From assembly GCF_000745345.1 (NCBI RefSeq), contig NZ_JQNR01000003.1, positions 248,001 to 312,000 of the forward strand: 64,000 nt of DNA. Direction: 5' to 3'. Under the pieces are notes generated by a model that was given only the letters and a program-made list of their open reading frames with translations, ran no database searches and had not been told where the DNA came from. Numbering within the stretch: position 1 is the first letter of the stretch; each line of letters opens with the position of its first letter. This document shows, piece after piece, positions 51,155 to 54,610 of this stretch. The DNA comes from Actinacidiphila yeochonensis CN732 (lineage in GTDB: Bacteria > Actinomycetota > Actinomycetes > Streptomycetales > Streptomycetaceae). Position numbers and translations under genes: made by a program.

Positions 51155-51805
51155 TCACCTGGCGGAGGTCGGGGCCGTGGCGGCCGGCGCGGACGGAGTC
51201 GGGGAGGCGGAGGGGAGGGCGGACGTGCCGGACGTGCCGGACATCTCGGACGTGGCGGCGGTGGTGGGCGCGTTCCCGGAGGCCGTCCCGGAGGTCGTCC
51301 CGGAAACCGTCCCCGCCGGGGGCGCCAGGGCGCCGGACGGGGTCGTGGGGTCCGCGGCGGTCGGGGCCGGGCTCGGCGGCGGGGAGGGCGGGGCGGTGGC
51401 GGGCGTCGGGGAGCCGTGCACCGTGCCGTCCGGGCCGAGGAAGGCGGGCACGCCGCCGGGCACCATGCCGAGCTGCTGGGCGCGTTGGGAGAGCTGCCCG
51501 GGCGCCGAGTAGCCGTCGACCTCCTGCTGGAGCTGCTGCTGCTCGTCGGTGTAGCCGGTGGTCCGGTCCTTGAGCTTGTCCAGCTTGAAGGAGTCGCTGT
51601 TGACGGCCGAGTTCAGCAGCAGCAGCGTGATCAGCCCGCCGCCGAGCAGCGCCACCACGAGGACGACGAACGGGGTGCGGGCCGCCGTCGCCGACCGGTC
51701 CGCCGCCTGCCGCCCGCCGAGCAGGCCGAACCCCAGCCCGCCCAGCCCCGACCCGGCTCCGCGCCGGCCTCCCGCGGGCCGCCGAGGCCCTCCGCCCGAG
51801 CTCAC
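51155..51805 (-). CDS. ftsL: FtsL-like septum protein
   Basis: The 216-aa bitopic protein has a basic Gly-rich cytoplasmic tail, one membrane helix (about residues 44-64, [20 protein letters not shown]), and a short coiled coil ([23 protein letters not shown]). A Pro/Ser/Thr/Ala-rich tail of about 95 aa is longer than in most FtsL. GTG 51805 overlaps the rsmH stop (GTGA, 51802-51805). Identity rests mainly on topology and position between rsmH and ftsI. Confidence 0.88.
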
Positions 51806-52800
51806 CGCAGGTCCTCCCGGATACGTTCGGCGCCGCGCAGCCGGGCCGGGGCGGCCCGCCGGTTCTCGGCGATCTCGTCCTCGGTGGGCAGTTCGGCGCC
51901 CCGGGTCAGCAGCCGCAGCCGCGGCTGGTACTGCTCGGGCACCACCGGCAGGCCGGGCGGCGCGGTCTGCGCGGCGCCGGCCCCCAGCACCTGCTTCACC
52001 AGCCGGTCCTCCAGCGAGTGGTAGGACAGCACGGCGATCCGGCCGCCCACCGCGAGGGCCGCGACCGCCGCGGGCACGGCCCGTTCCAGCACCGCCAGCT
52101 CGCCGTTGACCTCGATCCGCAGCGCCTGGAAGGTCCGCTTGGCGGGGTTGCCGCCGGTGCGCTTGGCGGCCTGCGGCAGCGCCTCCCGGATCAGCTCCAC
52201 CAGGCGGGCGCTGTTGGTGAAGGGCTCCCGCTGCCGCTCGCGGACCACCGCCTCGACGATCTTGCGGGCGAACTTCTCCTCACCGTAGGCGCGCAGCACC
52301 CGGACGAGGTCGCCGGGCGGGTACGTGTTGAGCACCTCGGCGGCGCTGATCCCGGTGGTCTGGTCCATCCGCATGTCCAGCGGGGCGTCGTGGGCGTAGG
52401 CGAAGCCGCGGTCGGCCTCGTCGAGCTGCATGGACGACACGCCGAGGTCGAAGAGCACGCCCTGGACGCTGGGCACGCCCAGCCGCTCCAGCACCTGCGG
52501 CATCTCGTCGTAGACGGCGTGCACGAGGGTGGCCCGGTCGCCGAAGGGCGTCAGGCGCTCACCGGCCAGCTTCAGGGCGGCCGGGTCCCGGTCCAGGCCG
52601 ATCAGCCGGCAGGCGGGGAAGGTGCGCAGCAGCGCCTCGCTGTGGCCGCCGAGCCCGAGGGTGGCGTCCACGACCACGGGGGCGGCCTGCGGTGGGGCGT
52701 CCCCCGTCGGGGTGAGGGCGGGCGCCAGCAGGTCGAGGCAGCGGCGCAGCATCACGGGGACGTGCCGCGGGGGCGGGGACGGGTCGGTCATGGTGCCCAT
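51802..52800 (-). CDS. rsmH: RsmH (MraW), 16S rRNA m4C1402 methyltransferase
   Basis: This 332-aa enzyme methylates N4 of C1402 in 16S rRNA. The family opener is HVPVML; the SAM motif is [14 protein letters not shown]. Also present: [43 protein letters not shown], and [16 protein letters not shown] 52800 is used, and ATG 52791 is an alternative three codons in. A gap of 674 bp separates it from mraZ. Confidence 0.97.
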
Positions 52801-53474: not shown

Positions 53475-53915
53475 TCACGGTATGCCGGTCGGCACCTCCT
53501 CGGACAGGGCCGAAAAGGTGTCCTCCTGGGCCGCGAGGTAGCGCTCCCAGGCGTCCGCCGCCCAGATCTCCACGCGGGTGCCGGCACCGATCACCGCGAG
53601 GTCGCGGACCAGTCCGGCGTACTCGCGCAGCGGCTGCGGGACGGTGACCCGGCCCTGGCGGTCGGGCACCTCGTCGTGGGCCCCGGCGAAGAGCACCCGG
53701 GTGTAGTCGCGGGCGGCCTTGGAGCTCAGCGGGGCGGCGGCGAGCTGCTCGGTGGCGGCCCGGAACCCCTCCACCGGCCAGACGCACAGGCAGCGTTCGT
53801 GCCCGCGGGCCATGACCAGGCCGCCGGCCAGCGGCTCCCGGAAGCGGGCCGGCAGCACCAGGCGGTTCTTGTCGTCCAGTCGCGGGGTGTGCGTGCCGAG
53901 GAATCCCAGGTTCAC
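53475..53915 (-). CDS. mraZ: MraZ, dcw cluster transcriptional regulator
   Basis: This 146-aa protein has two SpoVT/AbrB-like MraZ repeats, [23 protein letters not shown] at the N-terminus and [20 protein letters not shown] near residue 80. It binds repeats upstream of its own gene and controls the division cluster. GTG 53915 has GGAGG with 6-bp spacing. First gene of the cluster, divergent from the carbonic anhydrase. Confidence 0.95.
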
Positions 53916-53924
53916 GGCACACCT

Positions 53925-53977
53925 CCACCAGACGGCACCACTTCGCGCCACTTTACTCCACCATGTTCCACCGTCAA
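53925..53977 (-). promoter_or_regulatory. mraZ promoter with four GTGG repeats at 10-bp spacing (MraZ box)
   Basis: On the minus strand GTGG occurs at 53968-53971, 53958-53961, 53948-53951 and 53938-53941, exactly 10 bp apart, and again at 53925-53928. A promoter overlaps them: -35 TTGACG (53972-53977), 16-bp spacer, -10 TAAAGT (53950-53955). Binding of MraZ to the repeats would cover the promoter, which fits autorepression. Confidence 0.8.
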
Positions 53978-54034
53978 CGGCCGTCCGGCTCGGGCGCGGC
54001 GCCGTCCGGGCCGCCGCTCGGATACCGTCGGAAC

Positions 54035-54610
54035 ATGTCGATATCTGCTGGACCCGCCGGGCCTGCCGAGAGCACCGCCGGGGCCCCCACCGCACCGTCC
54101 GTCACCGCCACCACCGCGTCCGTCACCGACGACCTGGTGGAGTCGAACGCCCGTTACGCCGCCGATTTCAGCGACCCGGGCATGGGCGCGGCGCCCGTGC
54201 GCCAGGTGGCCGTCGTGGCGTGCATGGACGCGCGGCTCGACCTGCACAAGGCGCTGGGACTGCGGCTCGGCGACTGCCACACCATCCGCAACGCGGGCGG
54301 CGTCGTCACCGACGACACCATCCGCTCGCTGGCGATCAGCCAGCGCGCGCTGGGCACCCGCTCGGTCGTGCTGATCCACCACACCAACTGCGGCATGCAG
54401 ACCATCACCGAGGAGTTCCGCTCCGAACTGGAGCGGGAGGTGGGGCAGCGGCCGACGTGGGCGGTGGAGTCGTTCACCGACATCGACCAGGACGTACGGC
54501 AGTCGATGGCACGGGTGCGGACCTCGCCGTTCCTGCCGCACACGGACGACGTGCGCGGCTTCGTCTTCGACGTGCACACCGGCCTGCTCCGCGAAATCAC
54601 GGACAAGTAA
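54035..54610 (+). CDS. Beta-class carbonic anhydrase
   Basis: The 191-aa protein belongs to the short beta-class, similar in form to mycobacterial Rv1284. Zinc ligands are Cys63 (ACMDARLD), His116 and Cys119 (IHHTNCGM), with the Asp65-Arg67 catalytic dyad. It interconverts CO2 and bicarbonate. The first 30 residues are Ala/Thr/Ser-rich. ATG 54035 follows a TACCGT hexamer by six bases with no Shine-Dalgarno, so it may be leaderless. Divergent from mraZ. Confidence 0.93.

Follow-up and report, generated by a model that had tools for sequence, protein, structure and literature searches.

A conserved GTGG array interleaved with the mraZ promoter of Actinacidiphila yeochonensis as a probable MraZ operator

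Described MraZ binding sites

The sites bound by MraZ in Mollicutes are repeats of the form (AAAGTGKN3)3, according to the accessible sections of two studies (PMC5282649; PMC8475190). The same sections report that the MraZ of M. gallisepticum bound the HsdC site, where the GTG elements are spaced 1 nt differently, with a strength close to that seen for its own site (PMC5282649), suggesting that the 10-bp register is not absolute, and that overexpression of the protein was accompanied by more FtsZ (PMC8475190), which counts against strict repression. The title of PDB entry 9sz7 describes MraZ in complex with a 4 box promoter from Mycoplasma genitalium.

In Escherichia coli K-12 the MraZ protein is annotated as a repressor and three copies of GTGGG, 10 bp apart, start 44, 34, and 24 nt before the ATG of mraZ. 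In the available text of PMC7761207 these boxes are placed downstream of the -10, so that the actinomycete layout described below differs in position. The same text reports a mobility shift by the MraZ of Burkholderia cenocepacia with a 250-bp fragment containing four 7-nt repeats with 3-nt spacers, spotted by eye, and it cites the MraZ of another actinomycete, Corynebacterium glutamicum, as a regulator (Maeda et al. 2016). A search for publications on an MraZ box array of Streptomycetaceae, or on its decay after loss of mraZ, found none, which is a weak negative given the small share of the subscription literature covered.

The GTGG array and its promoter

The window, i.e., the whole stretch of 64,000 nucleotides that was analyzed, carries upstream of mraZ, on the minus strand, four GTGG boxes (53938-53971) that follow one another at a step of exactly 10 bp and lie within a predicted TTGACG-16-TAAAGT promoter. 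The features of the locus are the following:

53972..53977, minus strand: -35 hexamer TTGACG, abutting box 1
53968..53971, minus strand: candidate MraZ box 1, GTGG
53958..53961, minus strand: candidate MraZ box 2, GTGG followed by AG
53950..53955, minus strand: -10 hexamer TAAAGT, 16-nt spacer from the -35
53948..53951, minus strand: candidate MraZ box 3, GTGG, its GT common to the -10 hexamer
53938..53941, minus strand: candidate MraZ box 4, GTGG, adjoining the expected transcription start
53925..53928, minus strand: a fifth GTGG, 13 bp past box 4, overlapping the Shine-Dalgarno sequence and 3 bp off register
53921..53926, minus strand: Shine-Dalgarno sequence GGAGGT
53913..53915, minus strand: GTG start codon of mraZ
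53475..53915, minus strand: mraZ, 146 aa, GTG start, proposed box-binding regulator
51802..52800, minus strand: rsmH (mraW), following gene in the dcw cluster (TIGR00006, 297.4 bits vs a cut-off of 154.3)
51155..51805, minus strand: ftsL, dcw cluster (NF053549, 94.1 bits vs a cut-off of 55)
53963-54610, plus strand: divergent carbonic-anhydrase-like gene (its highest-scoring NCBIfam model gives 27.3 bits, far under the cut-off of 221)

The four boxes and their 10-bp spacing had been reported in a sequence-only reading of this DNA, and its coordinates are exact. Its further claim that the boxes overlap both promoter hexamers holds for box 3, two bases of which belong to the -10 as well, and has to be relaxed for box 1, which merely abuts the -35. 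The TTGACG-16-TAAAGT pair was the only sigma70-like pair detected in 53850-54100 (mean of 0 in shuffles), and the transcription start expected beside box 4, near 53943, was placed solely from the position of the -10.

Considering the composition of the window, both strands and its whole length, 2.4e-4 matches to the four-box pattern were expected vs one observed, and when the step was varied between 6 and 19 bp, the window had no GTGG quadruple at any value but 10. Three boxes at the same step are matched 15 times in the host genome vs 23 for a reversed control pattern; the bare three-box pattern is thus no rarity in this genome, and the case for the array rests on its position and its conservation.

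The fifth GTGG was rejected as a fifth box. At the Shine-Dalgarno sequence, GTGGAGG occurs in just 2 of 35 members of the genus (the window and one other), the site reads TGCGGGAGG in 23 of the 35, and the in-register position 10 bp beyond box 4 has CTGG in the window instead of GTGG. The significance that the sequence-only reading attached to this element is therefore unsupported, and it is judged a coincidence that would have no part in the operator.

The mraZ gene and its neighbors

The assignment of the gene as mraZ, made earlier from the sequence, was borne out by a profile search, in which its product scored 110.9 bits against TIGR00242 (above the curated cut-off of 98.35), and by the predicted fold. 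PF02381 is matched in the host genome at the mraZ locus only, as two half-domains in one frame, and the predicted structure of the monomer (pLDDT 90.4) matched five MraZ entries of the PDB with Z scores of 19-22, among them 1n0e (Z 21.8), 9qlg (Z 21.3), 9r4j (Z 19.0), and 9sz7 (Z 20.2, with an rmsd of 1.5 over 137 residues). Two sets of residues, one per half, are invariant among 28 aligned sequences: D10, K12, and R14, and Q83, G84, and R85 (numbering counted from protein residue 5).

The longest open reading frame of the divergent carbonic-anhydrase-like gene begins inside the putative operator, 54036 being a likelier start. A search of 74 loci of the family, each around mraZ or rsmH (L002 duplicates L001), gave matches to its protein at 68.

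Conservation of the array upstream of mraZ

PF02381 was matched in 35/35 genomes of the genus, in 52 of the 121 genomes sampled from the family (47 accepted and five weak single matches rejected), and in 63/69 class and 59/60 phylum genomes. The 47 accepted family genomes comprise 28 of the same genus and 19 from nine other genera; the 63 class loci include two from one genome (G160), and the phylum sample consists of the 27 new loci returned out of the 59 genomes with a match.

Conservation of the repeats in relatives had been named beforehand as a point on which the MraZ assignment could fail, and at least three exact GTGG boxes at 10 bp were found upstream of mraZ in 35/35 genus loci, in 19/19 loci from the other genera of the family, in 48/63 class loci, and in 15/27 phylum loci. 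At least two were present in 59/63 class and 21/27 phylum loci, and an array was missing in two loci of each of these samples. Runs of three were absent from the shuffles (20 mononucleotide shuffles per sample, keeping single-base composition). The distances between GTGG pairs upstream of mraZ showed sharp peaks at 10, 20, and 30 bp in the four samples, with 100, 52, 160, and 41 pairs at 10 bp in the genus, the rest of the family, the class, and the phylum, respectively, where the shuffles gave 1.08, 0.47, 1.47, and 0.28 pairs per distance. Based on these counts of sequence matches, the array upstream of mraZ is beyond chance.

Two or more boxes at 10 bp are present in 72 of 80 named loci, and 34 of the 80 show a run of four, with examples in Streptantibioticus, Wenjunlia, Streptosporangium, Nonomuraea, Actinomadura, and Frankia; two exact boxes at this step are absent in 8/80, and in 2/80 the upstream DNA is shorter than 200 nt. 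One locus from a different genus of the family (L060) has an in-register array of five exact boxes, with the additional box just 5' of the -35.

Over 398 class and phylum units the consensus of the box is approximately RGTGGNG, the G at the last place having a frequency of 0.77. The second base is T in 0.87 of these boxes, a value inflated because boxes were located by their likeness to GTGG, and GGGG accounts for 24/398; for the individual boxes of the set of four surrounding the -10, the frequency of this T is 0.70, 0.96, 1.00, and 0.79.

Four exact boxes were matched 50 times in the 35 genus genomes vs 78 for the reversed control. The mraZ site, and no other place, recurred in 30 of the 35, the other five having ATGG as one box, and the remaining 20 four-box rows, from 11 genomes, were mostly tandem or low-complexity repeats. 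Since the reversed control is commoner, a genome-wide MraZ regulon drawn from the bare four-box pattern was rejected. Tandem 10-bp repeats were observed at G000:C4:707045-707088 (GTGGAATCCC; L037-L039), near the start of a gene judged PfpI/DJ-1-like from its translation, and at G000:C4:1168305-1168338 (GTGGAATCAC; L040, L041); their consensus is unlike that of the mraZ boxes, with C ahead of GTGG and A at the second base past it.

On the reverse strand after the mraZ stop, two CCAC at 10 bp were seen in 8/31 genus loci (L006, L012, L016, L019, L020, L022, L024, and L027, with two or three GTGG). When pairs of boxes were scored with a box matrix, the 9-bp control step reached a higher mean than the 10-bp step (9.38 vs 5.76), so that a reverse-strand array is unsupported and these boxes possibly arose by chance in C-rich DNA.

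Phase of the boxes relative to the -35 and -10

In 61/61 class arrays exactly one box is fused to TANN[GA]T, with two bases common to the box and the -10, compared with 1/201 GTGG that lie in these upstream regions but belong to no array. The same fusion was found in 35/35 genus, 19/19 family, 19/25 phylum, and 64/72 named arrays. Wherever TTGAC is in reach, the spacer between -35 and -10 is 16 in 31/31 genus, 19/19 family, and 37/38 class cases; in seven phylum cases it ranges from 17 to 19, meaning that the lock to the -35 fails in the phylum sample. Between the last box and the conserved protein start, class loci have anywhere from 5 to 237 nt; the array thus tracks the promoter and not the gene start. 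This phase lock onto the -35 and -10 would represent a new detail of a known type of operator.

Genomes lacking mraZ

About 74 genomes of the family sample were judged to lack mraZ; 25 of them were examined and 24 yielded an rsmH locus (L061-L084). Five of the genomes counted as mraZ-less by judgement (G059, G081, G093, G100, and G105) have weak PF02381 matches and were rejected as mraZ carriers. These matches were taken as spurious: each is a single match that extends over only about 40 of 72 positions, within a frame of 318 to 1229 aa. Upstream of rsmH, a promoter of the same type was located in 19 of the 24 loci and was not located in the other five; three of the 19 promoters (L061, L066, and L075) come from genomes with these weak matches. 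In 16 of the 19 a match to the carbonic-anhydrase-like protein lies farther upstream.

Box 1 reads GTGG in 54/54 family promoters with mraZ vs 0/19 without it. For box 3 the corresponding counts are 54/54 and 2/19, with GTGA in 14/19 of the mraZ-less promoters. Box 4 is GTGG in 42/54 and ATGG in 12/54 promoters with mraZ, and GTGG in 2/19 without it. Box 2 is GTGG in 54/54 with the gene vs 17/19 without it; it formed part of the locating pattern, and 15 of the 17 promoters located by TTGAC alone keep it. The -35 is TTGAC in 50/54 and TTGCC in 4/54 promoters with mraZ, and TTGAC in 17/19 mraZ-less promoters. The persistence of box 2 indicates that not all bases of the boxes are kept by MraZ alone, and its outlasting of MraZ appears to be a new detail.

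In a tree of rsmH, whose bootstrap is unsettled and which has several long end branches, six mraZ-less genomes (g9) nest in a clade of 25 mraZ-bearing genomes, and the starred branches require at least two changes in the presence of mraZ. A single mraZ-less clade was rejected on this one gene (AU p 0.013; quick tree of 52 rows, outgroups left out). The simplest reading of the sequences is that mraZ was lost at least twice and that boxes 1, 3, and 4 then decayed, the -35 and -10 being retained. The GTGA form of box 3 together with a retained box 2 was seen in mraZ-less genomes of the g9 branch as well as in those of g3/g4/g11.

An autoregulatory MraZ operator

Altogether, this evidence suggests that the array is very probably an autoregulatory MraZ operator acting by occlusion, i.e., by negative autoregulation, in which the fifth GTGG would be uninvolved. 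On sequence grounds the array belongs to a known regulatory system, that of the MraZ operators: it is positioned ahead of mraZ at the head of the dcw cluster, contains at least three direct repeats with a GTG core (four GTGG), has the 10-bp step of the E. coli yardstick, overlaps a promoter or transcription start (here a predicted promoter), and co-occurs with mraZ as regards boxes 1, 3, and 4, box 2 persisting. The earlier assignment of the array to MraZ was strengthened by its conservation in relatives and by the decay of three of the four boxes in genomes without mraZ.

The array begins at the 3' edge of the -35 and extends as far as the expected transcription start. It can be hypothesized that adjacent subunits of one MraZ ring would each occupy one box on the same face of the DNA, and that the filled boxes would bar sigma and RNA polymerase from the -10 and -35. 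With its promoter blocked, MraZ would hold in check its own level and the downstream division genes; the sign of this control is taken from the annotation of E. coli MraZ and from the position of the site.

The array would provide an exactly placed candidate operator at a main control point of the cell-wall and division genes in filamentous actinomycetes, and the genomes without MraZ, in which the promoter is retained but few boxes are left, offer a natural control. These genomes also raise the question of who controls dcw in mraZ-less lineages.

Alternative explanations

An extension of the operator reading, which is rather doubtful, proposes that in Actinomycetes the site is a composite promoter/operator in which the -10 and a box share bases, and that in mraZ-less Streptomycetaceae a second factor took over part of it. 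It draws on the persistence of GTGGA[CG]TA[AG]AGTGACG and box 2 in the mraZ-less promoters and on a G to A change of box 3 that recurs in mraZ-less genomes from two distinct rsmH branches. The stretch GTGGAGTAAAGTGACGCGA of the mraZ-less lineages may be a target of such a replacement factor.

A G-quadruplex is defined by four tracts of at least three G, and the minus strand of 53938-53971 contains no GGG, two-tetrad forms lying outside the definition used. It is very unlikely that the G-rich repeats form such a structure in the mraZ promoter and are not a protein site, even though the accessible text of PMC11796246 (2025) describes a G4 motif upstream of mraZ in Staphylococcus aureus and reports that motifs able to form a G4 are conserved in the mraZ promoters of several bacteria. 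A quadruplex requires neither a T nor a register, whereas the boxes mostly keep the T at their second base, the step stays at 10 bp in the four samples, and the loss of boxes accompanies the loss of mraZ. Judged from the sequences, the absence of GGG, the mostly kept T, the 10-bp step, and the co-occurrence with MraZ point to a protein site, and a simpler reading can be offered for the conserved G-tracts of mraZ promoters that were published as G-quadruplexes.

The repeats could also be the site of another regulator that uses the promoter. In Dietzia, MtrA was assayed by EMSA on the mraZ promoter and is described as a direct regulator (PMC9602371, accessible sections), and by analogy MtrA may act on the mraZ promoter of the window too, which would leave the array unexplained. 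The fact that box 2 and the adjoining conserved stretch outlast MraZ suggests that another factor may read part of the region; however, boxes 1, 3, and 4 are mostly gone where mraZ is gone and E. coli carries the same box at mraZ, and that such a regulator accounts for the array is highly improbable.

That the periodic GTGG are a functionless by-product of promoter and GC composition is scarcely credible: both box patterns are indeed outnumbered by their reversed controls, as given above, but the peaks at 10, 20, and 30 bp upstream of mraZ, the lack of triples in the shuffles, the recurrence of the mraZ site, as of no other place, in 30 of the 35 genus genomes, and the identity of boxes 1 to 3 in 54/54 promoters (box 2 being part of the locating pattern) argue against it.

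Comparison with known systems

The proposed MraZ operator shares with that of Mycoplasma genitalium and M. gallisepticum (AAAGTG[T/G]; PDB 9r4j and 9sz7) direct repeats with a GTG core, the 10-bp step, and the location upstream of mraZ, and, as far as the titles of these PDB entries indicate, the mycoplasma operator is bound by an MraZ of like fold and a four-box complex has been solved. The site of the window differs from the Mollicutes sites in a box of approximately RGTGGNG and in a GC-rich genome; its own array is located over the -35 and -10. The operator of E. coli K-12 has the same GTGGG at a 10-bp step upstream of mraZ, in three copies, and differs, according to the published sections consulted, in that its boxes lie downstream of the -10, while those of the window interleave with the -35 and -10. 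With PmraBc of B. cenocepacia, as described in the accessible text, the array shares four repeats and the 10-bp step, those repeats lying within an MraZ-bound fragment and not having been footprinted; that site is located downstream of the -10, over the start site, whereas the array of the window reaches the -35.
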